Source of the DNA: Punctularia strigosozonata HHB-11173 SS5
Lineage: Eukaryota > Basidiomycota > Agaricomycetes > Corticiales > Punctulariaceae
Assembly: GCF_000264995.1 (NCBI RefSeq)
Contig: NW_006767439.1
Location: 1,326,818-1,390,817 of the forward strand
DNA length: 64,000 bases
Reading direction: 5' to 3'
A program made the position numbers and the translations under genes. Shown piece by piece: positions 9,672 to 40,128 of this stretch; position 1 is the stretch's first letter, and each line of letters starts with the position of its first letter. The notes beneath the pieces were generated by a model. It did not search any database, was not told the origin of the DNA, and saw only the letters and a program-made list of their open reading frames with translations.

Positions 9672-9956
9672 TTCGAGCTTCTACGCTTTGGATAATTGCA
9701 TTCGTGCCATGGACTTTTCTGTCTTCGGACATGGATCGGACATTCGATGTTTTAGCCCACAACAATGTTTACCGCACCTTGTAATCCTTTGCCTCGACAC
9801 GAGCCTTGCCGTCCTGTATTGTATTCTTCCGTTCGCAACACAAATAATCATCGCTTTTGCCGCAACGTTCGGTATGTTTCTACATTGCTGGGTAATGTAT
9901 CCACTACCTTCAGATGACAATGCGATGGGGGATGACTTACCCTCTTTGACGGTGAA

Positions 9957-10322: not shown

Positions 10323-12348
10323 ATGGAAGATCGATAGTAAGGACAACCTCCTTCTCGAGCTCCGTCCGCATCTGGTCTGACTGCCACTGTTCGTCTTCAG
10401 CGTGCCACATTGCTCGCACTGTTTATGCCCTACGAGTGATTACAGAGACCTTCACGATACATTCTCCGGGGAACGCAAAGAACGGTTGCGGGAAATCGAA
10501 GAATGTGTGGCGCAGATATGCGCTTCTTCTCTCCCCATCCCTGGTCTCGACCATTGCCCGTCATGTCTATGCCTCCCTGCTGGTGAAGGACTGGGTGCGG
10601 AGGAGTATCGCACGGAACAAAGCGAACGCATTTCGTCTCTGAGGCAGCAGCTCGAGCACATGCGCACGGAACTCCTAACCCTGCGCGCGAAACACAATGC
10701 ATCTCTGCCCATCAACGGTTTGCCTATCGAAATTTTGGGATATATCTTCACTTTGCCGCGCCTTCAACTGGAAACAGACTCGATAACTGTTCTGCAAGAC
10801 ACCAGCACAGATCCTTGGCCGGATGCAGAATGGCCGCTTATCTTGACACGAGTCTGCGGATTGTGGCGTACCGTTGCATTGAGTCTCCCTGTTCTTTGGA
10901 CTTTCCTGAGGCTTCCGGATACACCGACGCAGGCATTGAGCCTCTACGAACGTTTCCCCTACCAACCTCTTCGCGTACTGTACGACGACACTGACAGCGA
11001 CGCAGCCGCGCTTCAGTATACAGACAATCTTCGTCGGATTGTCTCTAACAACTCCTATCGAATCGTCGAGCTACGGATCAAGGCCACAGAATACGTCGAT
11101 GATATCGTGTTGAGTACCATAGAGGCCTTTAACCACGTTGCCCCAGCTCTCCGAACGCTCGAGATTCGCCCGGAGCTGCATGTGGATCAAGATGACCTTC
11201 GCGATACGCTCGATTGGCTGCTCTGCAAGCTGGACGCCACCGCATTGAACTCGTTGACATTGGTCTATCCCTTAGCGCCGTCCACCTGGGAAACTGAACT
11301 CCGGTTCTCCCGTTCCCTGCGCCATCTGGCCATCGACTACATCCAACCTCATGCCGTCTTTCCGAAACCTAACTTGCCGGACATATTGAACGTTCTCGAG
11401 TTTCTTACCTCGTTGGAGGAACTGGTATTGGTCAATTGCTTGGGATGTCTTGGCGAGGAAGAGGACGACCCGCAGGAACCAGTCACGATGCCTGCCCTCC
11501 GCGAGCTCAAAGTGTCGGGTTGCACCTGCGGCTGCATCAGGATCATGGAAAACGTACGACCCGCGCAGCAACTCGCGTACCTGGTGGTGAACTGCCGCAG
11601 ACTATGTCAAGGGGATCCTGTGGAGTTGTGGCGGCTTGTAGAAGAGAGAACTCCTGCGCATCCAACAGTGGAGCTGGTGTTCTGGGAGGTTCATCCCCGA
11701 TTGGATATCATGCGTGGTGAAGCAGGTGCATATCCAGAGCGTCACGACTCCCACGCTGTGAGCGTCAGCTTAGCGTCATCGATGCAACTCCTCGAGGAGG
11801 AAATATTTGGCGTCTTCAAGAACGTGGCGGCCGTGCTCTCGGGTCCTGTGACAAAATTGCACTTCGGTGGAGAATTCTTGGCCTTGTGGGAGGACCCTCT
11901 CAGTATGGACTTGCGACAGGCGCTTGAGAGGTGGCCCTTTGTGCGTACGGTGGTCTTAACGCACACGAGCGCAACCAGGACGTTCTTTACCGCCATTTAC
12001 AGTTGGAGACAGGACGGGTCGTTGGAGGATCGATCGAGATGGATTCTCCCGAATCTGACTTCGGTGCATATCAAGGACGCCGACCACGCGGCTTCTAGCC
12101 GATGGTTCCATCTATGTCTCGACGAATTGGAGATGCGGTCGGACTTGCGAACGGAGGAGGGCGAGCCCGTGTTCCGGACGCTCACGCTCGACGCGTGTAG
12201 CGGCATTTCAGACCTGGAACTTGACGAGTTGAGAAGTGCGATTACGGAGGTAGTGACGCTGAACTGGGACGGTGCTTCTGACAGCGTCAGTTATATGAGC
12301 ACGGACGAAGACGGATCCCACAGCGCCAGCTCCATGAGTACTGACTAA
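10323..12348 (+). CDS. F-box protein with N-terminal double CxxCxC motif (paralogue 1)
   Basis: A 14-nt first exon (10323-10336, MEDR + 2 nt), a 64 bp intron and exon 2 (10401-12348) give 653 residues. Near the N-terminus are HCSHCLCP (about residues 8-15) and HCPSCLCL (about 56-63), separated by a charged helical stretch. A basic helix leads to the F-box core LPIEILGYIF (about 112-121). A conserved segment with the VCGLWRTVALSLPVLWTFL motif follows, then a long LRR-like C-terminal region. F-box proteins of this kind act as substrate receptors of SCF ubiquitin ligases through Skp1; the substrate is unknown. The C-terminus ends in an acidic Ser-rich tail with the repeat MSTD. The first exon was chosen because five paralogues share the same tiny exon and phase-2 intron. 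Confidence 0.85.
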
Positions 12349-12455
12349 CCATTTCTTGCTACATGAATATAGCAACAATGTATGATAGCGTCCTTCATAC
12401 CAATCGCTCGTCGCCGAGTCTTGTCTCTATGTCTCACGATTTCATGCGTCGATTT

Positions 12456-13056
12456 TCAGTTCGGCTTTCGCGCGTATGTTACACGGTTGACCAGACCGAT
12501 GGGAATATCGTACATCTCGGGGACCGCAGCCCGTTCCGGGTTCGCGTCGTCAAATGCATACGCGAAGTAGGGGTCTGGAGTGGCTCCGGGAAGGAACTGG
12601 GCACGAGCATCTGTAAAAAACGTTAGATGCAGCGGCAGAACAGGGAAACGGGGGGCGTACCCGTTATCGTACTGACATCGGAGAACTGAGGTGTCCCCGC
12701 GAGCGCAAGGGCAAGGTATACGGCATAGGTAAAGAGAACGAGAACCATGGACCAGGCGGGGAGCAGAAGTGCCCACTCTCTGCGAATGAATCGATCATCA
12801 TTCCCCGCTCGCAGTCCCGGGTGATGGGAACGTACCTGGATGGATACCACTCAATACCCAGCCAGATTAACCACTCATCAGGAAGGAACGCCCAGAGCAG
12901 GAACAGAATATAAAGCAGATAGGTCGAAGTCCATGCGACGAAGCCATAGAACTCCTGTGCGCGAGACCGGTCTTCGGGTGACGGCTCAGGAGGGAAAGGG
13001 GCCAACGGCGAGGTCGGCGACGTTGGTGATGTTGGTCCCGAGGTCGCTCCAGCCAT
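12456..13056 (-). CDS. GPI19: PIG-P/GPI19, subunit of GPI N-acetylglucosaminyltransferase
   Basis: Three minus-strand exons (13056-12836, 12779-12661, 12610-12456) give 164 residues. After a Pro/Ser-rich N-terminus the family core appears: EFYGFVAWTSTYLLYILFLLW as the first membrane segment, then FLPDEWLIWLGIEWYPSREW, and a second membrane segment with WSMVLVLFTYAVYLAL. The C-terminal part has DPYFAYAFDDANP and DIPIGLVNRVTY, also typical of PIG-P. The complex transfers GlcNAc to phosphatidylinositol at the ER membrane, the first step of GPI-anchor synthesis. The gene shares a 169 bp divergent promoter with the cyclo-ligase gene at 13226. It looks intact. Confidence 0.9.
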
Positions 13057-13225
13057 CGCGAAGGAGCGAAGTGGAGTTAGTGTACGCTAAGTTGTGTGCT
13101 CGACGTTGATGGACATGGTTAGGAGAAAGCTCGCACTTTGCAGACTCCCATCGCTTGCCTCTCACCCTCGTCCCGGTCCTTGGCTTGTCACTCTCATCTC
13201 GACTCGACATCTCGACAGGACGGGG
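13057..13225. promoter_or_regulatory. Divergent promoter between GPI19 and FAU1 homologues
   Basis: Only 169 bp separate the start codons of the two outward-facing housekeeping genes, so 5' UTRs and promoters must be packed here. I see no clear TATA box. Confidence 0.5.
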
Positions 13226-14311
13226 ATGGCGGCGATCGTCAGTAGCAAGAAAGCTCTTCGAAAATCAATAACGGCTGCTCTCCGTTCACTGCCCGGCCAT
13301 GAAATCCAGTGCCAATGTACGCGATCTTTTCATGTCGAAGCCCGTATGAATTATCCTGACTTCTTTCCTTTTTTTTCTGTCCTAGCGCAAGCCATCACGC
13401 AAAGGCTCCTATCTGCACCGTTCTTTCAGCGTAGCCATGGCTTAAGCTGCTATCTCAGCATGCCGACGGGCGAAGTCGACACCGCGGAGATCGTCTCGAG
13501 TGTACTACGCTCCGGTAAGCTCCCCTTCATTATCACATGTTGCACGCACTGAGTGAAGGAAGGGAAGACGCTCTTCGTGCCTAAGATTGACAAGAGTGTC
13601 GACGGGAAGATGGATTTCCTCCGCGTGTACGACGTAGAAGATGCCAATACGCTCCCGACTGGAGTATGGGGCATCAGGGAACCTCCATATGAATGGCAAG
13701 ATAGACCTCGAGCCAGTGGTGCGTTATCACTTCATTCGCGCCGCATTTCGGTGCCTCGGTCGCTCATGTGTATTCGGTAAGCAGCCCTGGACGAAGATGG
13801 AGCCGGTCTCGATCTCATAGTCTTACCAGGTACGCGTGATCCATGAGATTCCTTTCATAGGATTACTAACCGGCTCTAAAGGTGTTGCATTCGACGAGTC
13901 GAGATCGCGTTTAGGCCACGGAAAAGGATATTACGACAGGTTCATATCTGCGTGTACGGCGCACGCTCTCAAGCGCGATCGGCAGAGGCCGCTTCTTGGT
14001 TAGTCCCGCTTTGCGCATAGTTCCTTGATGAGGCTCAAGGGTCCATCTTATTCTGTGCAGTGGCCCTCGCGCTTCGCGAACAAGTTCTCCCGGCCGCATC
14101 GGTCCCGATGGCGGAACATGACTGGAAGGTGGACATGATTGTCCACCCGGATGGGATTATCGGCGATGAGGCTGCTGCAGAGCCCAGTCGTGGAAGAGAT
14201 GGTGGAGGCGGCGATGATTCGATTGGCCGAGGAGGATCGTTAGCGGACGCTGCGACGATTGCCGTGGACTCAGTCCTACTCCATTCACGAAAAAGACTAA
14301 ATGAACAGTAA
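13226..14311 (+). CDS. FAU1: 5-formyltetrahydrofolate cyclo-ligase (MTHFS)
   Basis: Six exons (13226-13316, 13386-13514, 13563-13718, 13785-13829, 13882-13998, 14061-14311) give 262 residues. Family marks are KKALRKSI near the start, SCYLSMPTGEVDT, LFVPKIDK, the GVWGIREP motif, LDLIVLPGVAFD, the nucleotide-binding LGHGKGYYDRF, and PMAEHDWKVDMIV near the end. The enzyme converts 5-formyl-THF to 5,10-methenyl-THF with ATP, salvaging the stored folate form. The protein continues about 45 residues past the usual end (after HPDGIIG) in a Gly/Asp-rich tail. That could be real or could hide an unrecognised last intron. Confidence 0.88.
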
Positions 14312-14475
14312 AAGTCTTCCTTCGAGAGTAAGAGGCGTGCGATGGCGAATGTAAGGTGGCCAGGTTGAGCAGCGTTGTTCGCGTCTCGAAGTCTTCCTCT
14401 TCCCGAACCATCATGTACCCGCACACCCTTGGCTCTGCACTTCGCAATATCCTGCATCTATATACATAGGCCAAC

Positions 14476-16245
14476 ATGGCGGATCGCATGTTGTCGCTCA
14501 ACATCCCGACCACGACGCTTGCTAAACTTCTCAAAGCCGGCTACGAGTCTGCAAATGACCTGCAGGGCGCAACGCCGGAAGGGCTCGCAAAGGGTGCATG
14601 CCCATATCAAGGTTCCCGCTGAATTCTGTACTGACGACGTGCCTGTCCTCGCGGACTACAGATCTACGTATATCCGTGGAGGAATCAACCCACATCCTTG
14701 CGCGCGCCAACCGTGCCCGGGAGCCGCCTGCGAGCACGCCGGCATCTGCAACGCCTGGCCCTTCAATCGCGTTCTCGCTTCCTCTGACGCAGTCGGTTGC
14801 AGAGCTTACTGCCACGGCAAACACGCAAGGCGATCTCAAGTACTCGACTGGATGCCCGCCTGTCGATCGTCTATTGGGAGGAGGTCTGGTGCGCGGTGGC
14901 GTCGTGGAGGTCTCGGGACCTCCAGGGAGCATGAAGGAACATGTATCGATGGGCGCGATGAAGGGCTTTGTGGAACGCGGAGACGGTGTTATCATTGTTG
15001 GTGAGTACCTGTTCGTCGACCTTGCCGTACTTCCACGAAGCCAGGCGTGTTCTTGTCTACGGGTGTGCGCACCGGACGTCTGCGATCGAGATGACATACC
15101 CAACGGAGCCGATCCTTGGCGTTTGGCGCGTTTTCCCGCCATTCGACGTATCACACGCATATCATACTGATACGTCCACCCGCAGACACGCAAAACATGC
15201 TTTCGCCGTCAACCGTCATGACTTCGCTGATCGGTACGCCGCTTCGGCGCGTCAATCGGACTCTTCTAACGTTTCTCTGGTCTCTTTGGTCAAGTTAGAT
15301 GCCCATATACCCGCAGAGTCAAGAAGCCTCGTTCGATATACGCGTATGCATACACTCATGGACCTTCTCATCTTCATGAGCAACTTGTCAACGGAAATCA
15401 CTGAGCACCCTGAGGTGAGCCGTAACCTCCGACACCCGGTTGCTCTAGGAGACTAACGGCATGCGTAGGTGGGGTTATTGGTCTTGAACTCGCTTTCTTT
15501 TCCCTTTGCATCGCCGGCCTACACATCGCTCCCCCCGTCTTCCAAGAACAGCATATGTGACCGAATCAAACAGACTTTGTCGAAAATCTGCGCTACCAGG
15601 AAGTTGACGGTACGCATACCCCCACTTCAATGTTGCCTTTGTTTCCCCTATTTCGAGTCATTTCATGATAACTGAGCATATATGCAGGTTCTTATCACGA
15701 CGCAGATGGCCACGAAGCTCATCAACGCGGACGGATCTGCGGGAACCTTTGACACTGGGACCCGGGCCATCATGTTCCCCGCCCTCAGTGAGTTTGACTC
15801 CTTTCTTCTAGATTTCGCCAATCAACGCTGATTGTGGGCCTAGATAGCGCGTACCTTCCGTCTAAGCGTACACATCGGATTGTGATTGTTCCACATTCGC
15901 GAACGGAGGGGTAGGTCCTGTCACCGTCAAGGTTTCGACATCTAACCTCGGTTCTTTAGCGTCTTACGGCTTTTGTCCTCGCCAGCTCATAGTCATGATC
16001 GGGCAGGCGCAGCCACCGGATCTTGCACGGAAGAAAGATACGAAATTGTGGGCGCTCATCTTTTTGTTGCCGGTTGGACGATTTTACTTACATATGGGCT
16101 TGCATTTTCTTTAGATACATGGACACCTGGTATCACCCGACAGCTAGAGCCAAGCATGGCTACGTACCAGGATAGGAAACTCAACGGTCGCTACCGCAGA
16201 TCGATCCTTAGTATGGCCCGTAGTATGTATGCCTTATATTGCTAA
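14476..16245 (+). CDS. RAD51/RecA-family recombinase paralogue (RAD51C-like), eroded Walker motifs
   Basis: Exons 14476-14593, 14662-15000, 15186-15233, 15317-15414, 15469-15609, 15688-15787, 15844-15910 and 15960-16245 join in frame for about 398 residues. The N-terminal helix-hairpin-helix-like part (TTTLAKLLKAGYESANDLQG) is followed by YSTGCPPVDRLLGGGLVRGG, the usual RAD51-paralogue lead into the P-loop. The P-loop reads GPPGSMKE rather than GxxxxGK[ST]. The Walker B strand reads VGLLVLNSLSF, with Asn in place of Asp. Downstream VLITTQMATKL matches the L2-flanking Q-motif of RAD51C. Role: homologous recombination repair, probably structural rather than ATP-hydrolysing (inference). The C-terminus after LLSSPAHSH is uncertain because a GT-AG pair there could remove 50-60 bp. 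Confidence 0.7.
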
Positions 16246-16463
16246 ATCCTTCCTGCTGTCCTCTGTATCATGCCAGTCCATCAACGTGCTGCAGGTCGTC
16301 GTGTAATACAATCCTGTCTGTTCATCCTGCGTGAAAATCGTACACGTCTAGTCATTGCGGAGGTGCCCTGTCGTGGGAAGTGATTGCGCGTCGCCAGAGG
16401 TCGTCAGGCGTAACGCACGTTGACCTCTTTCTCCCTCCTCCATGACCTCGTAAATTTATGACA

Positions 16464-18441
16464 ATGTCCAGAGTTATCGCGGACAGGCTTTTTTCCAGGT
16501 AGCGATTGTATTTGTTCAATCCATGTTCAGCTGTTTGATTTGACCTTCGATGTTGTCTTTAGCGAGCCATGCTGTCTGTCATGCTTCTGCCCTCCTAGCG
16601 ACCTTGAAGACCTTCTCGTAAAGCTATCGGAAGAACGTAAAGGGAGACTGCAGGAAATGCAGCGTTGCATGACCCAGATATTGGATGAACTGACTGGAGA
16701 TCGCGCCCCGGAAGACGGTTCCCCTCCCATATCCCGTTCTGGCCACTGCCCATCATGTTCCTGCCCCTCACTAGCAGTTGGCGACGACGACGCCGATGGT
16801 AGATCGGACAACTCTGTTCAAGCACCAGGGCGCAAGCAACTTGCTTTGAATCAGCTTGAGGAAATCCGCAAGCGCATGCTGGCTCTACGCGCGGAACACA
16901 ATGCGTCCCTGCCCATCCACGTCCTCCCGGTTGAGATATTGGTTATGATCTTCATCTCACCCCTGACGGATTGGTTCCTGGGATGTCAGGATCAGAAATG
17001 GTCGCAAACCTTGGTGCAGGTTTGCAGCCGATGGCGACGGGTGGCATTGGAGACACCGGCTCTGTGGACGTTTTTGACGCTCCCGAACACGCCGGCAGGA
17101 GCGATAGGTCTCTTCGAACGTTTCAATGAACATCCTCTGCGTCTCTTTTGGGATGATTTCGGCAGGCCCACTGTTCAATCACAAGCACTACTCCCTCGGA
17201 TAATTTCGAAACATTCACTCCGCATTGTCGAACTGCGGATCTCTAATCACCGCCGCGAGGGACTCAAGACGGCATTGAACTCGATTGCTGCTTTCAGTCT
17301 CGATGCTCCAGCCCTCCGAGTTCTCGAGATTCGTCCTCATATGACGTCGTGTGAAGGGCGCCTAAAAGACCTCGACGAACATCTGTGCAAATTGAACGCA
17401 CCCGCACTGGAATCTTTGACCTTGACCTTCCCCCTCTCCAAATTGCTCTGGGAATCCTGTATCTTGCATTCCCCTTCGCTGCGACATCTATCTGTTGGCT
17501 ACGATGGGTACTCTGGAGTATATTCAACCCCCCGGTTACCAAACGTCTTAGATGTCCTCAGACATCTCCCCTCACTGGAACGGTTACGTTTACATGCCGT
17601 TGCTGACGGGGAACAAGGCGCTGGCGAAGTGCCGGTCGTGATGAACGCTCTTCAAGAGCTCGATCTCTCGGGGACCGTCCGCTACTGCGTGAATATTCTC
17701 AAGAACCTGAAATTTACGACGCTCTCGTACCTAAGGATCATTGGACGAATAGACGAAGGCGAGGACGTTGGCGAGATGTGGCAGCTCGTCGACGGACTGT
17801 TTCCTGCACAGCCCATGCTTCATCTGGACTTGATTGATGACGAGCCCCACTTCAACATTAAGTGCGGCCAAACGTGGATCGACGACGATGGTCCTTATCC
17901 CCTCACCATTATGTTCGAAGCGGAGAGTCCATCGGACATTCTTGACGCCTTTGTCAAGCTAGTCCCTCGATTTTCGAGGTCGATCACCACACTTTCCTTT
18001 TCTGGATGGTATCCTGAATCGTGGAACGAGGAGATAGACCTACGAAGAACTCTCGCGGGGTGGAGTTCAGTTCAAACCGTATTCATCCGCTACACTCCGG
18101 CCACCATGTCGTTTTCACAAGCCATAAGGACGTCAGACCAGTCTCGTGATGACCGTCCCAGTTGGATCCTTCCGAACCTCACGTCTTTGACGATTGAGAT
18201 TGAAGACGGAGAGTACGACGGCGAAGGAATACGATGGTTCGATCTCTGTCGAGAGGAGTTGGAGCTGCGATGTCGCTCCGGAGTTAGAGACGATAATCCC
18301 AACCCTGCATTCAAGTCGATCACTTTCATCCATTGCACAGAGGTGTCGGAGAAGGACCTCGATCATCTGAGAATGGTTGTGCCAGAGGTGAAAACGTTTC
18401 CAACTGCGAGCGAATCGGTGAATAGCATCGGATTTTGTTGA
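16464..18441 (+). CDS. F-box protein with N-terminal double CxxCxC motif (paralogue 2)
   Basis: Exon 1 (16464-16498, MSRVIADRLFS + 2 nt), a 64 bp intron and exon 2 (16563-18441) give 637 residues. CCLSCFCPPSD and HCPSCSCPS flank a charged helix. Then come LRAEHNASLPIHVLPVEILVMIF (F-box core LPVEILVMIF), VCSRWRRVALETPALWTFLTL and LRR-like repeats to the end. Gene structure and motif order match the paralogues at 10323 and 19146. A substrate-receptor role in SCF ubiquitin ligases is expected from the F-box. It lies head to tail with paralogue 3 and shows no break. Confidence 0.85.
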
Positions 18442-19145
18442 GCGATGTCGGCAGCGCGAGGCAAATACAAGTCCTGTGAGGGATCTAGCGAAGTCGCGTT
18501 TGTTGGCAATCGAAGTTGAGGCTCGATCCTTGAAATACAAGTATACACTGTGCAAACTTGCTCAACGCTACCGTGGAAAGTAGACACGGACTTTGATTCG
18601 ATCCGGAGCCCCGAAATCCGGGAGAGCAACTTCCAGGTTGGCACGAAATAGAGCGCGAAGCACTCTGTAGGGTTAACGTTCGTGGTTGTTGCAATCTAAG
18701 TGCAGTGGCCGAGCTGGGGAGTGTTCGGCCAGCATCGACGTCAACTCTAGCATCGCCGAAATAATGAGTCGGGGACTCCATAGCACACTACCGGTACGGC
18801 CAGTTCGAATATCGTATAACATATGTACAGTGGTTTGGGCAGCGACGTCTCGTTCAATTTTTGGATGTCGTCCGACCGGGATGCGAGGCAGCGCCAGCAG
18901 CTACCCCACCGTCCTTCACCACCCCGAGATCGTGCGGGTCGCCACTGGGAATTTTCTGCCTGAATAGTGGCTTCACGTAGTCACTCCATCCCGTTGTCGT
19001 ATTTCACGATGCTGCTGCCGTGAATCAGAGCGGGTGCCGTGGGAACACAATCACCCCGGCACCGGATCCTCGCCGATTGTTTTTCGATCATCCACCGACA
19101 TCCTCCTTACCCTGTTCTCTGGTGCATAGCAAGCTCAACTTTGCA
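18442..19145. other. Intergenic stretch between F-box paralogues 2 and 3
   Basis: About 700 bp between the stop of one F-box gene and the start of the next. No convincing coding frame or repeat seen; it must hold the terminator of the first and the promoter of the second. Confidence 0.4.
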
Positions 19146-21161
19146 ATGAAAGCCATGACTATGTGAGGATCCTGCTGATCCACCCAGGGTTCATCGGTCT
19201 GATGATGTATACGATCCTCGATTAGACGAAGACATGCCCATGCCGGTTGCCACTCGTGCTCTTGTCTACCAGAAGACTTGGAATATGTAGTCGCCGTCTT
19301 ATCGGACGACGACAGACGCGAGATGAAAGCCCTTCAACTTTGCCTCACTCAAATAAGCGAAGAGGCTGCTGCTCTCCGCACAGGGACTGGGCATTGTCCG
19401 TCGTGTTTCTGTCCATCGGAGTCTTCCAAAACAGTCATCGATGGCAGTAGTACCCTCCAAGGCCATATCTCAGAGGAAGATAAAGCTAGGAGCTTGCATC
19501 ACACGCTGACGCAGGTGCATACAATCCGTCACGAAATGTTCTTGCTCCGTGTGGCGCACAATGCGTCGCGTCCCGTCAATCGCGTTCCAGTCGAGGTGCT
19601 AGCCGAAATATTCCTCCGCAACCTGCCGCCCCAGTGCGAACACTTTGGACGAGACGGGGATAGGGTTCCTGACTCCGAGTACGTGTCGGCATTGACGCAG
19701 GTTTGCAGCTTCTGGCGCCAAGTTGCGCTAGGTACTCCGGCTCTATGCTCCATCCTGCCAATCTCAGATAAGCCCGAGCTCGCGATTACGATGGCCGAGC
19801 AGCATCCTACCAAGCCCTTGCGTATATTCTTCTCGAACAAGGGTTATGTCAATCTCCCGAATGCTTCGGCGGTACTCGTAAGAGTGATTTCGAGACATGC
19901 TGCCCGAATTTCCGGACTCTGGACCATCTCAAGTTACAGGCTTCTTGCGACCGCACTGGGTGCACTCCCGGATACTCTGCCCGCTATGAAGAGCATGAGA
20001 GTCGATTTGCAACAGATGTTCCGTGGCGATAGGGATACATTGACCACGATTCACTCTCGCCTCCTCAGACTACGAACACCGATGCTCGAGCATCTGCACA
20101 TATCCCCCATCTCATCCTCTATTCTATGGGCGACCCAGCTCATACGCTCTCCTGGCCTGCGCCACCTGTTTATTTTGCTGGAAGAACCTACGGACATCGC
20201 TCGATCGCATTCTCTCGCGAACATTCTAGACGTACTCGGAAACCTCACGTCGCTGGAGAGCCTTCAGATACGACGTTGGCTGGCGCCGAGCGATCCGCCG
20301 ACGCTCCTCCCCAACAAGGCGTGTCTTCCTCGTCTGCGCGAGCTCAAACTCGTCGGGTCCTGTAACGGATGCATCAATATCCTCGGAAACTTGGAGCTCT
20401 CGTGGCCGCTTTCGTCGCTGTCCTTGTCCTGCGACGACACGGACGAGGGCGATATTCGCGCAGAGGAAGTGTTCCATGCGCTCGAGTCCCATGACGAGCT
20501 TCCGCCGGAGGTGACGCTGGAGCTTTGGGCGGAGGATTGCTACATAGAGGTGCATTATGGCCGGCCGGTCCGGCGAGGCGACTCGTACCGCCGTCCGATC
20601 TCACTCGTCTTCCCGGCCGAGAACGAGGACGACCATGTGCTTGCGATCGCCGAGCACGTCGTACCGCATATCATTCGCTCGGGCACGACGGCGCTGGCGC
20701 TAGAGGGGAGCTACCCTCAATATTGGGATCGGCATCTGGACCTGCGGGGGATGTTCGAGCGGTGGTCGACGATACGCGAGGTCTGCGTCACGTACATAGA
20801 GCCCACCATCTCGTTCTTGAGGGCGATCCAAACCGCGGAGAGAGACGGGCACGATAGGTCTCGTTGGATCCTTCCCAACCTTGCTTCGTTGGAAGTGTCA
20901 CAGGCGAGTGACGAAGACCGGATCGACCCCTCCGCGGAGCACCCGTGGTTTGGCGTGCTCCTGGCCGAAATGGAGTTGCGGTGCCAGGCGAAGGCGGAGG
21001 ACGGGGTGCCCGTGTTCCGGTCGCTGACCTTCAGGTGGTGTGACGACATCCCGAAAGGCGGATTGGATGCACTGAGAAAGATGGTGCCGAGGATCCGGGT
21101 GACGGACGATGTGGCCGCGCCTCTGCAGTTGGAGGAACAATCAGTCAATGTTTTGTTCTAG
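19146..21161 (+). CDS. F-box protein with N-terminal double CxxCxC motif (paralogue 3)
   Basis: Exon 1 (19146-19162, MKAMT + 2 nt), a 63 bp intron and exon 2 (19226-21161) give 650 residues. GCHSCSCLPEDLE is the first cysteine motif and HCPSCFCPSES the second. The F-box region is NRVPVEVLAEIFL, followed by VCSFWRQVALGTPALCSIL and an LRR-like C-terminal part containing SLTFRWCDDIP. Without the short first exon and its intron the first cysteine motif would lie outside the reading frame; the same arrangement in the paralogues supports the model. Probably an SCF substrate receptor. Confidence 0.83.
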
Positions 21162-25801: not shown

Positions 25802-27175
25802 TTACATGACGCTGCGCTTTGTATGAGAACGGTGACGACGATCCGTGGCCACTGCTTTTGGAACAGCCCTTCTGAGTTTGTCCAAGTCCTGCTCCGAAAT
25901 GCCCTCCCAACGGATGAACGTGACCGATCTGAACACGGGTTCGCCATCTTCGCCCTTGAAGCTACAGCGCATCTCTAGCTCTTTGCGGCAATCATCAAAC
26001 CAAGAGTATCCCTCGGACATCATCTCCGGGACAGTACAGGCAGCTTGCCAGGATCAATGAATCCAACACGGGCAGTTGTTGGAGAACGTTCAGGATATAA
26101 ACCGGGTTCCGGGACAATCCGATCGTAACGGCCGTAATCAAGGGAGAGTTGGCGCAGTGACTTGGAGTACAGGACTCCCGATTTCCAAACAGAAAGCGCC
26201 CCGGGATAGGCCAAGGTCAGAGACTCCAGTAACGGGGTGTGTAGTTTACAGAGAAAACGGTCGAGTGCTTCGCAGATTTCATCACGCCCGCCACGATAAT
26301 CACTCAAACGAATCTCAAGCGTTGTAAGGGCTGGAGCGTCGTCGTTAAAGGCGGCTATGGCAATCAGAAGGCGGTTTATTTATCCTTGTTGACTCTCATA
26401 CGAATTTCTGCGAGGTGAAAGGAGTGGTCGGAGACGATTCGAGATAGTGTTGCTGTATTGAGATTTGGATCGCGGTTGTAGGTCTCGAAAAGCACACGGA
26501 GCGGGTAGTTCGCAAAGCGCTCGAATAGAGCCACTGCTTGTGGAGGCGTATCTGGAAGCTTCAGAAAGGTCCAAAGAGTCGGCGTATCCAACGCTACAGC
26601 GCGCCAGAAAGCGCAAACACGCGTGAATGCCAAGGCCCATTTCCCATCGGAAACGTCATTGCGAACATGTCGAAAGACCGAGTTCTCCCCGGCAGGCGAA
26701 TCAAAGGGCGAGGCGAAGATACGAACCAAAACTTCAATTGGTAGATTGTTGATAGGGACGGATATGTTATGTTCTGTGCGAAGGACAACAAGTTCCGTGC
26801 GCGTGTCTCTGAGCTGTTGCCAAAGAACCTGACCAGCTTGAATTCGATCGTTTGCAGCCTTATCCAAGCCCGATCCGCTACCGATTGTAAAGCACAGACA
26901 TGGCGTGCAATGTTCGGAATCGGCGATGGTGGCAGAATTGTGTGTGGCGCAATCGACGGATATTTCATCGCGCTTTTGGGCCATACGTCGTCCAGCTCCC
27001 TGTAGCAGCTCTCTCCGTTCTCATGAGAGCTTTTGATTGGGATCTTCATGATCGCCTGGAAGACATAGGCAGCGCGAGCAATGTGGCGAGCTGAAGACGA
27101 TGGCAGAAGTGCAGGTCAGATGAAACAGATATTAGAGAAAAGAGACGTTGACAGCACTGACTATAGATTTCCCAT
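25802..27175 (-). pseudogene. Decayed F-box paralogue of the double-CxxCxC family
   Basis: The minus strand keeps the family gene structure: a 14-nt first exon (27175-27162, MGNL + 2 nt), a 71 bp intron ending CTTCAG at 27091, then HCSRCLCLPGD and HCTPCLCF. The F-box NNLPIEVLVRIF and VCAFWRAVALDTPTLWTFL follow. The frame is interrupted by a stop soon after the first cysteine motif and again after RMRVNKDK (about 26376). Later pieces (26307-26020 and 26023-25802) carry the LRR-like and C-terminal parts, with a large internal deletion between them. Intron sequence and motifs are closest to paralogue 1 at 10323, which is probably its nearest relative. Confidence 0.8.
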
Positions 27176-30825: not shown

Positions 30826-31699
30826 CGACTCCGAGTAATCTCTACGCCCGCGTTCAAAGGTTCCGGACGGGTTGTAGTCGTCAGGGGCTTGATGCTGTAA
30901 TCACACACTTCTTTATTCAAGCCGTGTGTCATCACTGCAAAGGCGATAACTATGCAATCCCGGGATTATGCTCAAGCTGGTGGTGGGCATGCCCATGTGC
31001 CCTCGCGGCAGCTTTGTGGTCGCCGACAGCCTTAGAGCCACCTTTTCATGTCACACAGCTCTCCGATTCGCCTGCCGCCGCCCGCGAAGCAAGAGGGATC
31101 TGAGTTCGGACATGCCGCCCCGTCATGGCCTCGCCAATACGCCTCCTCCTCGCTCGATATCGTCGCACCAAAAGCTGTCAAATCGCCTGCGCTCGGACGC
31201 CCCTTCTCTACGGATAGAAGGAACTTCGATGTGCGACGACGCGGTCATTCTTTTCCCCTGAACACCCTAATTATTCGCCCCCCCCCCCGGCTGTATGTAG
31301 TTGTCGGATGGATGTTATGATGTCGCCTCCCAATCGACCACTCTATCCGTGGCGCATGATACATAAGGGGCACTGCCGTCGACGAGAACGGGCAACCGAT
31401 GCAAATATACACGGGCGTACGGTACGTGCCGCACCTTGGAAGATCTGGGTATGGAAACACGGCGGCCACTGAGTCGCGTGAACGGTCTCTGGGGCGCCTT
31501 TCAAACCGTTGACAATTTCCAAGACAATAATCATCGCTGTATGGATGATGTCTCGTGGGTGACGACCAGTTCATGCGCTTCTAGCCGGTGGACGCGAATC
31601 GACAGCATCAACTACCATTGATTCGTCAGGGAGGTCCATGCACGACGAAAGCGGATACGCACCTCGAAAACGATCCCCATCCCGACACACCACGCTGGC
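30826..31699. other. Intergenic stretch; no gene seen
   Basis: A run of ten C lies near 31281-31290. No frame here looks coding. Confidence 0.4.
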
Positions 31700-32370
31700 C
31701 TAATCGACCTCTGCGTCCCATATCTTCACGTTGTCATCACCCCCTGAGACGAGGTGCTTGCCATCGGGCGAGAACGCGACGGAGAGAACCCCCATAAGAG
31801 CACCGTGAGCTTGCCAAGGCCCCGCCACAGTCTGTCCCGTCTGCGCGTCCCATTATCCGGATCCTGCCGTCGTAGAAGCCGGAGACGACGTACCTGCCAT
31901 CCGGCGAGAATGCCACGGAGGTAACCTCGTTTTCGTGCCCTTGCAATGGCCCCAGCACCGTCTGTCCTGTCTGAGCGTCCCAGATCCGGATCGTCATGTC
32001 GTTAGGAGCCCGAGACGATGTGCGCGCCATCGAGGGAATATGCGACTGACCACAAACGGACCTATCGTGGCCTCGCAGCGGGTCCCCGACTGGCTGCTGG
32101 CCTGTCTCGGTCGTCCCAGAGTTGAATCGTGCCATCGCTGGATCCAGAGGCGATGTTGCTTCCCATCCGGTGAAAAAAGCGACGCTCCGAATCCAGTCAG
32201 AGTGCACCCCGTAAAAGGCTCGCCGATGGGCTGAGAATGCGACACACCGGCAAACGTATGCCCCTCTGAGCGGCTGCCCGATCTGCTGTCCTGTCTCCCA
32301 GTGGAGACAGGGCAGCAGATCGGGCAGCAGTGCGACTGTGGGACGTGGAGACTTAAGGCTGGGGTAAGTC
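31700..32370 (-). pseudogene. Broken WD40-repeat array, partly inverted
   Basis: The minus strand contains about four to six WD40 units in changing frames, such as GHENEVTSVAFSPDGRYVVSG, SVAFSPDGKHLVSGGDDN and TIRIWDAQTGQTVLGPLQG, ending in a stop near 31700. From about 32304 the orientation flips: the plus strand reads AVRLWDVET and TGQQIG. High similarity between units is typical of fungal NACHT-WD40 (NLR-like) genes, but no NACHT or effector domain is visible. This is probably a rearranged fragment of such a gene. Confidence 0.7.
32276..32325. repeat. 50 bp hairpin at the WD40 inversion point
   Basis: Two 23-nt arms (32276-32298 and 32303-32325) are reverse complements with one mismatch, around a four-base loop CAGT. 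Both arms encode the WD40 motif TGQQIG, on opposite strands, so the hairpin marks a head-to-head junction of two repeat units. Confidence 0.8.
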
Positions 32371-32771
32371 GAGATTGGTGGGCCGACGATCCCCGACGTC
32401 ATCGTCGCGTCTCGCGGAAGTCCGCTCCGCGCCGGCTCAAGGTAACCTCCCACTTCCGCGCACACGAACGCAAACGCCTCTGCTATCCTCGCGCGACAAT
32501 GTTTCCCTGTGTGTGTTTGCGCTCCGATCTTTGACGCGACTGCGCGCGCGACACCGGCAGTCGCCCCCGGAGGTCCAGAGTAAAAGCAAAACATCGGCGT
32601 TACATACGAATATGGTTATCAAGACAGGAACTCGCGATATGGCTACAGAAACCACGCAGCACGAATGAGTTCTTCCGCGTTCGTCGTTAGCCGTCGATAG
32701 CTATACGCAGAGTTTATCTCACGAGGGCCAAAGTGTTCCATCCCAATGTGCAAGCCAAAAATAATAATACC
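32371..32771. other. Short gene-free stretch
   Basis: Contains the 3' flank of the aldehyde dehydrogenase gene. No coding frame recognised. Confidence 0.4.
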
Positions 32772-35312
32772 TCATACTCTCAGTTTACCGTTCCTCCTCG
32801 CCACTAACACTGCGACTGCCAGGGCCAGTGAGAACAGCGTCCATTTCCATGTCGACACCGAGCTCGAGCTTGCCTTTGCGCTCGAGTACGCGTCGCGTCT
32901 AGGCAGTTTCGTCGGGAACATGCGCGCGAGCGCCCGTTCCTTCTTTGCCTGGCGTAAAGGAAAGAGATCGGTCAGCACGAAGGGTGAGAGCGAATGAGGG
33001 CATCGATGGCGCACCGTGTACGGCGGGAATCGGAAGTTGAGGATCATGTCGATCCTGCAAAGGAGCCCGGCACAGTCAGTCTACCATGGCGCCAGAGAGG
33101 ACCTAGCGCATGGAGTCCTTACCAGCCAGGAGAGTCGATGCTTGCGCGGAGATGCGTGAACATGTCGAAGGTGAATTTGCCCGTGTGGTAGCCAGTGCCG
33201 CTCGGTCCAATACCACCGAATGGCAAGCCTTCCGCTATATACGCGAGAGATACAGTCAGTTGACGTTCAGAAAGATCAGAAGACCGCAGGGAACGAACCT
33301 CCGATATGGATGATGAGCTCGTTGGCGCATGCTGCACCTGACTGCGTACTGTCAAACACTGTGTGACAAGGCGGACCGGATCAGTGATGTCCTCTTATGC
33401 ATCCAGCCATATGAGCGCACCCTTCTTCTTGGTCTTAGCATCGTTGGAGAACACATAGAGCGCCAGCGGATGGTCTCTGGGATTATTTGTCAGTTTGTTC
33501 AAAAAGTAGGCATAAAGCCAGGGACTGTAGGATCGAACCCGCTGTTCACGAAAGCGATGGCCTCATCCAAGTCCTTGACAGGAACGATCGGAAGGAGTGG
33601 CCCGAATATCTCGCTGAAGGACAAGTGGATATGTCAGCGTCGCCTGGATCACCAGCAACCTATGCGTTACTCACTCGGACATGAGCGAGTCGGACGTAGG
33701 CACATTTTTCACGACAGTCGGTGCGATGTACCTGTCGCCCTCGTTCGTGTCGCCACCGAGCACGACTTGTCCCTGGGTGCCGTCGAGGAGCTTCTTGATC
33801 CGATTGAAATGATTTCCGGAAACGATACGAGAGAAGGAGTCGGATTTGGCGGGTCCTTCAGGATAGAAATCCTTATATCTATTGGACGAGTAGAATCAGA
33901 CGAAACGGAATGCGGCGAGAGAGGTCAGTTGACCGTCACGCACGTATCCTCGAGCGCCTTGACGAGCGTATCCTGGAACTCGCGCGGGACGAGGACGTAG
34001 TCTGGCGCGACGCACGTCTGGAAAGGCGCGAATGATGTAGAGTGATGAACATCCTACTTCACACGAAAAACAGAGGTAGAGAAAACGCACCTGACCAGCG
34101 TTGGCCACTTTTCCCCATAACAGCCTTCGCGCGGTCATCTTGAGGTCGCAGTTGGGATCAACGAAAACGGGCGACTTTCCACCCAGCTTTCCGTGATATT
34201 ACGGAACGGTGTCAGTAGGTAGGGCGCAGGACAGGTATTTCATGGACGAATACCTCGAGCGAAACGGGCGTGAGACGTTCCGCCGCAGCTTTAGCCACGA
34301 TCTTCGCTACCCTGCTGTTACCGGTGTACAGGATGTGGTCCCACTTCAGTTCAAGAAGCTAAGAACGATGCTGTCGTCAATCATGGCATAGAGATGAGAG
34401 TAGGAGACAAAGGAAGTTTACACGGGTCGTCTCGGGGATGGCACCGTTCACAACGGCGTACAGGTCCGGATCCAGATATCTGAGACGAGGCATCGGTAGT
34501 ACACGAGAGCAAGGATCGATCTCAAAGGCGACGTAAGAAACACCTACTTTGGGAACAAATCAGCCATCAGCTGCGAGCAGGTCGGCGTGAGCTCGGATGG
34601 TTTGACGACGCATGCGTTTCCTGCTGCAATTGCGCCGATCTAACATGGTGAACATATCTTTCGTTATCTGACGTCCGTGCGGCGCACGAAGGGATTGCGT
34701 ACGAGTGGCCCGATGGTGAGGAAATATGGGTAGTTGAACGGAGCGATGATCAGAACAACGCCCTTTGCCTGGAAAACCCATGCCCCCCGCCACATGTTCC
34801 TGTTGAGCGATCATTTCGGAAGTAACGCAAGTGTCCATGCTTCACCTCCTTACGGATGACGGGTTTCATAGCGAAAAAGTTGATATTGAACGGCGGTTTT
34901 TCCGGCGCGGCCCATTTAGGGACGTCTTTGATCGTCTTGACAGCTTCGTTGATCAGGGGAGCGACCTCCAGGCTATTCGTGAGAGTCAATGTACGTCAAA
35001 CCCCGACGACGGTCATGCGGGAAAACGCACAAGTTGGTCTCCAGTTTTGGACGACCGAGATCCTTCGCCAAGGCCTCCTCAAACGCCGATTGGTTCTCCT
35101 TGAGCATGTATGCGAGCTGCAGAAGCTGATCTTGGCGTTTTCCGAGAGACTTCAGGGTGCCGGTTTTGAAACCCGCGTGGAGGCGGGCGTGAATCTGCAG
35201 AGTGGTCGCAGATATCAATTCGACGTATTCACGTGAGCCAACAACAAGCGGGTCGTCTCACCCTATCAATCTCCTCAATGGGAGTGAAGGCGAGCGTAGA
35301 TGAAGACGCCAT
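32772..35312 (-). CDS. Class-3 fatty aldehyde dehydrogenase with C-terminal membrane anchor
   Basis: Many minus-strand exons run from the ATG at 35312 ([17 protein letters not shown]) to a stop at 32772. Spliced segments follow the ALDH3 order: [89 protein letters not shown] with the catalytic glutamate, [13 protein letters not shown] with the catalytic cysteine, [13 protein letters not shown], and [17 protein letters not shown]. After the catalytic domain a hydrophobic segment, [15 protein letters not shown], followed by Arg-rich residues forms a tail anchor, as in yeast Hfd1 and human ALDH3A2. It oxidises long-chain aldehydes to fatty acids at ER or lipid-droplet membranes. Key residues are present and the frame is continuous across the introns I tested. 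Confidence 0.87.
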
Positions 35313-35809
35313 GATAATCCTGCTGTAATCCTACGTTGCGAGCGTCGCTAGGCGATACGAAGACTTTAGAGTGGTTCCTTCCTTTTCAGAGCAAGTTCAG
35401 ACATCGCAGACATGTGTACTGACGGAGCCCGTACTGATCAACCCCCTCGGCTCGCTTGTCTATTGAACTTCGAATAGGTTCCGGACGACTCGTAGGATCC
35501 TGACGGAGAAGTGGGTACTGAGTACGTCCGCAGGAACGAGTAGTCGCTCGATGGTGGGGACCCGTAGCTGTGAAACCGTCTTTCAGCACAACCGCGGATT
35601 GGGATTGGTGCGCGTTGGGGGTGAGCGTCGCGTATGTACTTGGTGAGTGTGGGGTAACACGGGATAGATATAAGTAGCTGCGCAAAGCGCGTTATTTTGC
35701 CGGCCGGTCATCTGTGCTGCCGGTGGCGGTGCGTGCGAGCCATATCCCAGAATGAAACAGGGCCACCTTGGACCTCTTCGTATCGCCCGCTGGAGTACAC
35801 GGTAGTGCA
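35313..35809. other. Divergent intergenic region between ALDH and F-box gene
   Basis: About 500 bp between two outward-facing start codons; it should contain both promoters. No motif stands out. Confidence 0.4.
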
Positions 35810-37967
35810 ATGCCGCGATCCTTGACAATGTAAGCAGTAAAATCTTGTCCCATGGAAGTGCTCGCACTGTCACTGAAAGCATGCGGTTTCAGCCATCCTC
35901 ATTGCCACTCCTGTGCCTGTTCTCCGGACGATTTCGCATCTTTGCTTGCAACGCTCTCAGAAGGAAACGCTCGCCGCGTCGAGGAGCTTCAAGAGAGCAT
36001 CACCGAACGCTGTGATATGGCTGTTGCTGAGGGTTATGCAAGTCGCGATCAGAGCAGCATCGACCGCCATCAGTGCCATTGCCAGTTGTGCCACTGCTAT
36101 CAGGACCCGGACGAGAGTGCCTCTACGCCCCGCTCTCAGATCACTATTTACCATGATCAATATCTGGAGTTACTGAATCGGCTGCGCCAGGCTCGCGAAG
36201 AGATGTTCGCACTGCGCGTTGATCACAATGCATCAGTTCCCGTCCATCGCCTTCCTATTGAGCTGCTCCAAGCGATCTTCGTCCTGTCCTACGACCCTCC
36301 TACGCCTTTCTTCGAACCTCCGGATACGTATAACCACGTGGTGCCGGACGTCCACTGGCCCATCGTTCTTGCCCAAGTGTGCGGCAGGTGGCGGCAGGTG
36401 GCTCTGGACATCCCGTCTCTCTGGACGAGCTTGACGGTCTCCACATTCCCGACGCTCTCTCTCGCTCTCGCGGAAAGATACTCCAAGGAACATCTGCGCC
36501 TCTTCTACGCCGCAACTGACGGTGCTGGGAGTGGCCCTCTGAACGTGATGACCACGATCATCGCAAACGATCGCGCGCGTATCCTCGAGCTCGGGATATA
36601 CCGGACAGGAAGTGCTCATATATGGGGATGGACACGGTGATTGATTAGTTTCAAGAATCAGCTCCTGCCTTGGAGCGGCTCGATATCGACACATCGGGAG
36701 TGTCGCTGAACGAGAATGGCGAACGAGTCTGCGAATTCGAATCACGTCTCGCCAAAATTTGCGCCCCCGCGCTTCGAGACTTGAGGATGCAGTGTCTGAT
36801 CTTTCCATCAATGTTCGATTCTCAGCTGCTCCGCTCTCCTAATATTCGCTTCCTATTCCTCGTAAACATCCCAATCATACGTCAACAACCCAGAGCCTCC
36901 TCCTCCGACATCCTCGACATCCTCGACCACTTGCCGTGCTTGGAGACATTGCATCTTTCCAACTGTCTGATGCACGAACCCGGAGGAGTGGCATCCCGAG
37001 CAAAGCCAAATCTGCGCTCCCTACGCGAATTCGAAATATGGGGGAATTGCTGCGACTGCATGAACATACTCGGAAACGTCGTGCTTGCGCAGCACCTCAG
37101 GCGGTTTTCATTTAGCTGCGGCGCCTACCAGTGCCCCAGATGCGTTGAACTCGTACCGGAACTTTGGAAGGTCGCCGAAACAACCTGCGATGTGCCACGA
37201 GAGTTGCTCCTCCAGGTGGATTGGTCGGACTGCTGTCAGGTCGTCGTTCGTGGTCGTGACCTCCCTCGGAAAGATCCGTATCTCCACCCCTCCGCTTTGC
37301 AGTTTCAAGGTCAAGTCGACGACGACATATGGGCTATCTTTGGTCGGCTCCAGAACGTCATCCCTCCTGCTAGAGTCATAGCGATCGCATTCTTGGGTGC
37401 TCGTCCTTGGTCACATCCGGATGTCGCCTTGAGAGACGCATTGGGACGTTGGAGCTCTGTATCAGATATCTCGGTCACTCACCGCGGGGCTACGATGGCC
37501 GTCCTGAAAGCACTGCGTACCGACGATGCATCCCAGCTCGACCGCTCCCGAATGATCCTCCCAGACCTGACATCGATGACTGTTAGCGACATCACCACGT
37601 GGGAGAACCTGCGATGGTCAAGTAGCGACATCAGGAAAAACCGGATTTGATAAAAGCCTCCTAAAACATACTAAAACGTGCTCATTTAGTGGCTTTAGAG
37701 GGTTTCGGTACCCAATAAGCAACTCTTTCGATACTCCGATTTTTCCTGATGGACATCTCGTGGTTTGAACTCTGTCGAAACGAGATAGTGCGGCGATGTA
37801 AGGTCAAAAGGGAGGACGGCGAGCCCAATTTTAAGACGCTCTGCTTCAAGAGGTGCGATGGGATTACGAATGAAGGGCTAGCTGTGTTGGCAAGGTCGGT
37901 TAAGGACCTTCAAGTGAAGGGAGGGGGAGGTTACTTTTCGGATTCAGACGACGACGAGTATATGTGA
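35810..37967 (+). pseudogene. F-box paralogue 4 (double CxxCxC family), broken and split by a MITE
   Basis: Exon 1 (35810-35829, MPRSLT + 2 nt) and a 63 bp intron lead to HPHCHSCACSPDDF and HCQLCHC. The F-box HRLPIELLQAIFV, VCGRWRQVALDIPSLWTSLTV and the LRR-like part follow. The frame is lost near 36620-36645, where a one-base shift precedes an in-frame TAG (the intact relative has DMFQG here). Coding similarity resumes through 37623. A 117 bp MITE (37632-37748) then interrupts codons SDI|SW. The end, with WFELCRNEIVRRC and DDDEYM, is intact after it. A 12-nt GT-AG pair at the first break is too short to be an intron. Nearest relative: the convergent gene at 40128. Confidence 0.82.
37632..37748. 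mobile_element. hAT-like MITE inside F-box paralogue 4
   Basis: The 117 bp insert starts CAGGAAAAACCGGAT and ends with ATCGGTTTTTCCTG-type sequence (CCGATTTTTCCTG), giving terminal inverted repeats of about 14 bp with one mismatch. Flanks AGCGACAT and ATGGACAT match at six of eight positions, consistent with an aged 8-bp target duplication as in hAT elements. Removing the insert and one flank restores the family reading frame (SDISW). It encodes nothing and is AT-rich relative to the gene. Confidence 0.78.
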
Positions 37968-38117
37968 AAGTACCCGCGTGCATATAGCTCATCGAGGAAA
38001 ACGATAGGAATTTGCACGTATTACTGGCCCAAGATGTATGAGAAACAAGATGTACATTGGCGATGATGCGACGGATCTGCGGAAGTAATCAGAAACGGTA
38101 ATTGAACAAACAGATCT

Positions 38118-40128
38118 TCACATATATTCGTCTTCCGGGTCACAGACATACTCTCCCCCATGTGCGACATGCAAGCAGGGTACAATCTTCTCTAGCGCAG
38201 CCAGTGCTTCCTGCGAGATACCGGCACACCTCTGGATGCTGAGAAATCTGAACGTCGGCTCGCTATCCTCTCCCTTCGCGCGACGACGCCTCTCTACCTC
38301 GTCGTGGCAGATGTCGAGCCACGACCCATCAACACTTTGATGAGACGAATTCCAAACGTCGCATATGGTCAACGCACTTAGGCTCGGAAGAACCCAGTTC
38401 AACCGATCGAGTTCGGGCATGGATGATTCCGGGGCCCGGAAAGCTTGTAGCAATGAAATAGCTGCCCCGCGACAATGGACTGATATATTCCTTATAGATG
38501 TCCAGCGGCGAAGAACATCTCTGAAGCTTGAGTGTGGATGCGACCAAGGGCGAACCCCCCATAACGTCAACTTCGTGATCCTTCCACTTGGTAGAACCGG
38601 CCCCAGATGACAGACCGTGTTCCATACGTCGTACTCCGTTTGGTCTTGCATCTCAATATAGAATGGATCGCGGATTTTGGTAACAAGAGCGTCGTGGCGG
38701 CAGCGGATTACGAGCTGGTACGAGTTCGCCCAGTCTATCTCCATTTCCAGTTCCCCCGGCAGATCGCAGCCATTTTCCGCAAGCTGCCACAGCTCGGCGG
38801 CAAGCTCGGGACATCTTGGGCACCGACTAGACGTGCAGCTCAGGGCGAGCCGTGTCAAGGGTTGTGCAAGCGTCAGGTTCCTAAAAATGTTGGTGCATCC
38901 GCAGCAACTATCCCGTATTTCGAGTTCGCGGAGGCACCACATATTCGGCTGCCTCCGTGATATCACTCCACCCATTTCGTGTTCCAGGCAGTGTGCGAGC
39001 TGCAAGACCTGTAAGGACGGTATGTGTTCCAAAGCGATCAGGATCTCGTGAAGAGTGGGCTTCGGGATCCGATGCACCGTATGGATGTGCTCGATGGACA
39101 GATGGGATAGCGCGGAAGAGCGTATGAGCTTAGATTTCCATACCGTGGGCGACGCGAGGCAGCGCAGTTTCAAGTTGCTAAGGGCTGGAGCGTGAATGTT
39201 CGATAGGCGCGTTTCAATTCTGACGAGTTCGTCGCGACTATGGAGTGCCAGCCCCCCTGCTGTATCTACGACCAGCCGTTGTAGGAGGGGGGCATATCCT
39301 TGGAACATGTCCAGGATGACATCCATGCTGATGTGGGAGTGTCCCATGAGGTAGATACCGAGCTCGACGATCCGAGCACGATCTTTGGCGATAATCGCGG
39401 ACAGCGTTCTGAGTGACTCGTCCCCAAAGAGGTCGAACCCGTAGTGAAAGATACGTAGGGGTTCTTCTGGAAAGATTTCTGAGATGTGAAATGCGAGCGT
39501 CGGGAATGCCCAGACTTCCAAACTGGTCCAGAGGGTGGAGGTGTTCAAGGCCACTTGCCGCCAGATGCCGCAAACCTGCGCCAGCGCGGACGGCCAGTGA
39601 AACTGGGGACGGTGATCGGCTCCTTGCCACGAAACAATGGAGGACGATGTGGGAGAGTCGTGGGACAGGATGAAGATGGCCTGAAGCAGCTCAAATGGGA
39701 GACGGCTGACTGGCCTTGATGCGTTGTGTTCAATACGAACAGAGAACATATCTTGGCGACTCTGATGAAGGGGCGTCAGAAGCTCGTGTAAGTGTTTCAT
39801 GCAATCGGATGTTCGCTTCTTGACAGGTGATAGGTCCGCGCCCATGACCAGAGGGCACGAGCATGATCTGCAGTGGTCAGGAGATGCAACGACATCCACC
39901 AGGGCGATAAACTCGCTGCCGACTTGCTCTATCTGAGCCTGAAGGCCTTCAACATAGCAAGCACGCTCTTCTGTGAGTGCCGCGAGAAAGGTGTCGAAAT
40001 CCCCTGGAGGGCAAGAACAAGAAAAGCAATGAGGATGGCTGTGGACGATTGAGTGTTTATCCTTGAGCGCTGCACCTGAGTGAACATACAACTTACATTG
40101 TAAACATATCCCAATCCTCACTGTGCAT
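38118..40128 (-). CDS. F-box protein with N-terminal double CxxCxC motif (paralogue 5)
   Basis: On the minus strand a 32-nt first exon (40128-40097, MHSEDWDMFT + 2 nt), a 58 bp intron (40096-40039) and exon 2 (40038-38118) give 650 residues. HPHCFSCSCPPGDFD and HCRSCSCPL flank a helical stretch. F-box core RLPFELLQAIF, VCGIWRQVALNTSTLWTSLEV and LRR-like repeats follow, and the protein ends in DPEDEYM. An intron-free reading from an upstream ATG at 40220 is possible, but the short-exon model matches the paralogues and has good splice sites. It is convergent with the broken copy at 35810, its closest relative, with 150 bp between the stops. Probable SCF substrate receptor. Confidence 0.83.

Follow-up and report, generated by a model that had tools for sequence, protein, structure and literature searches.

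The question raised by this locus is what a pair of short cysteine motifs does in front of an F-box, and how far such an arrangement extends. The locus is a 64,000 nt stretch of the Punctularia strigosozonata genome (G000:C7:1326818-1390817), referred to here as the window, in which six gene copies, A to F, encode proteins with an F-box and leucine-rich repeats (LRRs), each carrying two motifs of the form C-x2-C-x-C before the F-box. We give an even chance to the reading that these are FBXL-type substrate receptors of SKP1-cullin-F-box (SCF) ligases, having a metal-binding, probably zinc-binding, Cys/His knuckle on a helical arm that precedes the F-box.

Gene structure of the six copies

All six copies were found at the starts proposed by the first-pass annotation, and each has the very short first exon, the phase 2 intron and the two motifs described there. 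In window coordinates they are:

Copy A: 10323..12348, + strand; exon 1 10323-10336, intron 10337-10400, exon 2 10401-12348; open, 653 aa, F-box/LRR; motifs PHCSHCLC and DHCPSCLC
Copy B: 16464..18441, + strand; exon 1 16464-16498, intron 16499-16562, exon 2 16563-18441; open, 637 aa; motifs PCCLSCFC and GHCPSCSC
Copy C: 19146..21161, + strand; exon 1 19146-19162, intron 19163-19225, exon 2 19226-21161; open, 650 aa; motifs AGCHSCSC and GHCPSCFC
Copy D: 25802..27175, - strand; exon 1 27175-27162, intron 27161-27091; decayed, with homology in several pieces and the far end approximate; motifs PHCSRCLC and EHCTPCLC
Copy E: 35810..37964, + strand; exon 1 35810-35829, intron 35830-35892; decayed, with a stop after codon 255 and the last piece of homology past it at 37749-37964 (G000:C7:1364566-1364781); motifs PHCHSCAC and CHCQLCHC
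Copy F: 38118..40128, - strand; exon 1 40128-40097, intron 40096-40039, exon 2 40038-38118; open, 650 aa; motifs PHCFSCSC and DHCRSCSC

The first exons of copies A to F are 14, 35, 17, 14, 20 and 32 nt long and the first introns 64, 64, 63, 71, 63 and 58 nt, the latter being in phase 2 in every case; unspliced reading through exon 1 meets a stop codon in all six. Copy C has two candidate acceptors, giving an intron of either 63 or 69 nt, and the donor of copy D is GTCAGT. Copies A, B, C and F can be read through both exons without a break (637-653 aa), and the frame is broken in copies D and E; the cluster is probably evolving by birth and death, with D and E decaying.

Form and conservation of the cysteine motif

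The three cysteines are intact in all twelve motifs of the six copies. Histidine precedes the first of them in ten, the exceptions being motif 1 of copy B, which has a cysteine at this position, and motif 1 of copy C, which has a glycine; the usual form is (P)H-C-x2-C-x-C. Twenty columns are invariant in the aligned N-termini of five copies (A, B, C, E and F), including all six motif cysteines, and the codons of the motif cysteines use both TGC and TGT. Across the 15 pairs formed by these five copies and L030, a relative on another contig, synonymous sites are saturated (proportion of synonymous differences, pS, 0.65-0.83, over two ranges for each pair), and the non-synonymous equivalent, pN, takes values of 0.36-0.52 across the alignment as a whole. 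The saturation indicates that the copies are old, rather than the products of recent copying.

The first-pass annotation had also pointed to the survival of the cysteines even in the decayed copies. Copy E retains 7/7 cysteines, against 32 of the 37 other columns (86%) that are invariant in A, B, C and F; copy D, compared over the part past its first frame break, retains 4/4, against 29 of 36 (81%). Since the loss of other conserved residues is only slightly greater, the persistence of cysteines in D and E is uninformative, and was rejected as a sign of constraint.

Spread across the genome

The genome searched comprises 33.6 Mb in 32 contigs. Copy B has at least 72 matches in it and copy F at least 63, these being matches rather than genes, whilst F-box-like matches number at least 121. 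Motifs were counted in all three frames, within 480 nt of the F-box and with the antisense as control, in the DNA preceding 55 F-box relatives, which are loci among the matches of the genome similarity searches, and 29 F-box loci outside this set. The strict pattern [HYC]C-x2-C-x-C precedes 16 of the 55 relatives in sense and none in antisense; the equivalent counts for the other F-box loci are 0/29 and 1/29. In all 16 relatives, the nearest strict motif lies 165-201 nt, or 55-67 residues, before the L-P-x-E of the F-box. The loose pattern, C-x2-C-x-C, adds three loci, among which L030 (165 nt) was accepted and L080 (130 nt) and L091 (388 nt) were not, bringing the motif-bearing relatives to 17 of 55. 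The spacing was set by the search pattern, so that part of the apparent constancy of C-x2-C-x-C follows from the way it was counted.

Paired motifs, eight loci on three contigs: copies A to F; L030 (contig C2); L044/L032 (contig C15, decayed)
Single motif, nine loci: L029, L036, L068, L071, L076, L079, L082, L084 and L098

L071 is counted as single, its second match being 5' of the likely start Met. The idea of a private family of six copies is not supported: nine other F-box loci are preceded by one motif each, and the pair itself recurs on two further contigs. Written as DNA, the pattern PHC-x-[ST]-C-x-C has 14 sites in the genome, as opposed to four for the reversed pattern, and ten of the 14 are directly before an F-box relative. 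The sites on C9 and C3 have no F-box within the 301 nt examined, and no gene was linked to the site at C7:1291298. The alignment of N-termini was also searched against GTDB genomes and IMG/VR, giving 10 and 4 pattern matches respectively and no confirmed relative; little was to be expected there, because these collections hold prokaryotes and viruses.

The motif is missing or broken in several relatives, some of them with open frames, and partial forms exist: of the broken-frame loci L027 and L042, the former keeps C-x-C and the latter C-x2-C. Such a distribution is what might be anticipated if the cysteines served to pack the arm without any metal, as part of the ordinary divergence of a large F-box family. 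However, the cysteines have persisted despite saturated synonymous sites and the level of non-synonymous change given above, and we regard this purely structural explanation as improbable.

Two further groupings of F-box relatives were observed. G000:C19:368114-441062 holds a second cluster, in which at least three members (L068, L071 and L076) have a single PHCxSCxC; in two of these three, the motif directly follows an in-frame Met. The relatives at G000:C1:712224-770271, taken with L029 (C1:615479), span intact (L029, L036), partial (L042) and non-intact (L039, L040) motifs, and are a natural series for motif decay.

The micro-exon model

The gene model was put to the 17 motif-bearing genes with a finder that takes an ATG, a short exon, a donor, an intron of around 50-80 nt, a [CT]AG acceptor no more than 20 nt from motif 1 and an open frame; Markov-resampled upstream sequences served as the control, and the donor pattern was composed after these genes had been seen. 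A phase 2 micro-exon was modelled in all eight paired loci (A-F, L030 and L044), the control rate being 0.5% per resampled upstream, and in one of the nine single-motif loci, L036. L068 joins it under a looser rule only, the model for L084 is in phase 1, and the finder gives no model for L029, which is the closest to L036 of the nine. Copies A, B, C and D have no unspliced in-frame ATG 5' of motif 1. Such an ATG is available in E, F, L030 and L036, and the case for splicing there consequently rests on the common position and phase of the intron. The module would aid annotators in placing first exons of 11-35 nt, which gene finders are likely to miss.

The position of the motif relative to the start codon has a bearing on a further possibility, that lipidation of N-terminal cysteines anchors the receptor to a membrane. 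In L071, L076 and L098, the proline of the motif is one or two residues past an in-frame Met, and several cysteines are found near the likely N-terminus. However, lipidation is not known to require either the C-x2-C-x-C spacing or the histidine, and motif 2 of the paired genes is internal; S-acylation therefore appears to be a very unlikely explanation.

Origin of the pair

A tree of 31 rows was constructed from the F-box to the end of the protein, with L044, L082, L084 and L098 excluded and E and L042 entered as short pieces. The paired rows A, B, C, E, F and L030 cluster at 88/91, which is under the tool's starred level, and adjoin L024, L025 and L027, none of which has an intact motif; copy A is sister to B (100/99), and E to F (100/98). 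With hhalign, unit 1 (motif 1 plus helix 1) can be aligned to unit 2, and either of these to the single-motif units, the units being short and the score driven by the motif. The pair probably arose once, through the gain of a second motif-helix unit. The proline at position -2 and the L036 micro-exon favour motif 1 as the older, whereas F-box distance and BLAST alignments favour motif 2.

Protein class and predicted structure

Seven exon 2 pieces from the six copies were scanned with Pfam at E values up to 10, with HMMER filters that drop most weak matches and with motif 1 of copy D lying outside the scanned piece. The F-box profile PF12937 has a cut-off of 24.3 bits, which is exceeded by copy E (25.4); D (22.8), B (22.4), C (16.2) and F (14.2) score below it, and copy A is not matched. 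The genome search gives 25.4 bits for the F-box of copy B, and the relatives L068, L071, L076 and L079 are also above the cut-off. LRR profiles in the copies remain below the Pfam cut-off.

No convincing Pfam match was found over the N-termini, the lone match to a domain of unknown function in copy E being at chance level (E = 0.13); zf-CXXC, Zn2Cys6, RING and the Rad50 hook gave no match there in the scanned pieces, which do not include motif 1 of copy D, and comparison with PDB sequences produced only chance-level matches. These searches agree with the earlier suggestion that the paired element before the F-box corresponds to no named domain. The available extracts of the literature on such motifs or on fungal F-box families do not contain the motif, and none concerns an F-box with CxxCxC. 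The motif is thus unnamed as far as Pfam, PDB sequences and this literature extend; fungal proteomes lie outside the comparison, and annotators may already be familiar with it.

The AlphaFold model of copy B, made from a six-row alignment (mean predicted local distance difference test, pLDDT, 66), has helices at residues 11-20, 23-44 and 87-115, followed by the F-box region and the LRR; residues 201-430 form alternating strands and helices, with block means of pLDDT between 65 and 92, as in an LRR fold following an F-box. For copy F, a model covering 229 residues from the N-terminus (mean pLDDT 65) has helices at 11-20, 23-50 and 70-107. A Foldseek search with the copy B model gave ten matches with E values up to 0.001, all LRR proteins by title, half of them SKP1-bound F-box/LRR entries (D3 twice, FBXL2, TIR1 and Dia2). 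Lone bridge residues fall at the histidine of motif 2 and at the residue past its last cysteine (61 and 68 in the B model, 55 and 62 in that of F). We read both models, at low confidence in this part, as placing motif 2 in a tight loop that would hold its three cysteines between two long helices.

A motif between two long helices, as in these models, could act as a metal hook: placed at the tip of a coil, it would clamp two chains in the single-motif proteins, or two helices of one chain in the paired ones, via a shared metal in the manner of the zinc hook, and the SCF would work as a dimer. In L071, L082, L084, L047 and copy A, the helix that precedes the F-box is more heptad-like in its spacing than shuffled sequences (0-9 of 2000 shuffles do as well), but in copies B, C, E and F the signal from helix 2 is weak, with 57-295 of 2000 shuffles doing as well, and Rad50 appears in the PDB search only at chance level (E = 1.1). 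We consider such a hook rather unlikely.

A proposed metal-binding arm on a probable SCF receptor

If the favoured reading of an FBXL-type receptor with a metal-binding arm is right, the F-box would bind SKP1, as predicted from membership of the F-box family, and the LRR would bind a substrate for ubiquitination by the SCF ligase. According to PMC7729025, it is usually the LRR that binds the substrate of FBXL proteins, hence the first-pass suggestion that the cysteine element is a substrate module is not indicated. The arm of the paired copies would run from motif 1 through a short helix, helix 1 (22-28 residues in the models), a linker containing motif 2 and helix 2 (29-38 residues) to the F-box. 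Each (P)H-C-x2-C-x-C motif could supply up to four ligands, one histidine and three cysteines, in a tight loop around what would most likely be one metal ion, probably zinc; the bound metal may cap or join the helices of the arm, with the single-motif relatives carrying one cap. What the sequences themselves show is the gene structure, the motif, its distance from the F-box, its occurrence across this genome and the resemblance to F-box/LRR proteins; binding of SKP1 or of metal, and any part played in dimerisation or sensing, would go beyond this. An extended version holds that an unnamed metal-binding module, situated 55-67 residues before the F-box, has long been present in a sizeable family of fungal F-box proteins, where duplication of the module switched the arm from bridging in trans, as a dimer, to bridging in cis, so altering SCF assembly or conferring a response to metal or redox state; this seems to us unlikely.

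Several observations weigh against the favoured reading. The case for a metal is indirect: it draws on the H-C-x2-C-x-C pattern, on how well this is conserved and on the loop that the models contain. At the motifs, pLDDT is low (ten-residue means of 39 and 44 in the B model, and of 53 and 53-57 in that of F), and both models derive from the same six copies. F-box scores are below the cut-off in most copies and absent from A. Five of the ten Foldseek matches are to LRR proteins without an F-box in their titles, and TM-scores across the matches are low, at 0.16-0.41. The loose pattern has a background, being found before 19/55 relatives in sense and 2/55 in antisense, and before 0/29 and 3/29 of the other F-box loci. 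Omitting the proline, HC-x-[ST]-C-x-C has 46 sites genome-wide and the control 38, a slight excess which places the signal in PHC and in the position before F-boxes. The fold can do without the motif, since no intact copy of it is present in the open-frame relatives L025, L039 and L040, and the evidence is split as to whether motif 1 or motif 2 is the counterpart of the single motif.

The LRR cysteines were considered as partner ligands for the N-terminal motif, following an early hint of co-occurrence. This was rejected: 17 of the 20 aligned relatives have the LRR cysteine whether or not they carry the motif (L023, for instance, aligns at GSCNGCIN), and this cysteine therefore looks like part of the LRR core rather than a partner site. 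The same result bears on the possibility of a redox or metal sensor, in which a change in the state of the cysteines, through a disulphide or through loss of a metal or Fe-S cluster, would toggle the receptor as iron and oxygen do for FBXL5. A Cys-rich N-terminal module on an FBXL scaffold has its nearest functional parallel in FBXL5. However, there is no hemerythrin match in Pfam up to E = 10 and the LRR offers no evident partner site, making a sensor a doubtful proposition.

F-box families such as this tend to be annotated from the F-box alone, and a Cys/His module at a near-fixed distance provides a concrete handle on them; from it one would predict that SCF receptors of this type depend on metal and possibly pair.

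Neighbouring genes

Upstream of copy A, positions 5942-6447 and 8932-9768 of the window contain tandem genes resembling ricin-type beta-trefoil lectins, the second identified by PF00652 and the first only by similar antisense translations. A WD40 fragment at 31737-32615 (- strand) adjoins the F-box cluster, and is possibly a decayed larger protein. At 51182-54762 (- strand), two overlapping frames encode tetratricopeptide repeats (a weak match, below the cut-off) and a CHAT domain, which may belong to a single gene interrupted by an intron or by a frame break.

Comparison with known systems

The FBXL proteins of SCF ligases, as exemplified by FBXL2, TIR1, D3 and Dia2, share the order of F-box followed by LRRs, and supply half of the ten solved structures that best match the model of copy B; the proteins described here differ in having a Cys/His arm before the F-box, and F-box scores that mostly fall below the cut-off. 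The Rad50 zinc hook resembles the arm in that two long helices flank a turn bearing a cysteine motif, an arrangement which in the present case comes from low-confidence models. It differs in having C-x2-C alone, at the tip of a very long coil, and no match to its family was found here. The D domain of Cdc4/Fbw7 is likewise a helical segment directly before the F-box, and is used for dimerisation, but these are WD40 receptors and are not known to carry such a cysteine motif. FBXL5 is alike in being an FBXL protein with a metal-binding part before the F-box, if the motif indeed binds metal. FBXL5 senses iron through a hemerythrin-like domain, as stated in the abstract of PMC12379171, and is under [2Fe2S] control, going by the title of a reference in PMC7729025; in the proteins described here, which do not match hemerythrin, a short Cys/His loop precedes the F-box instead.

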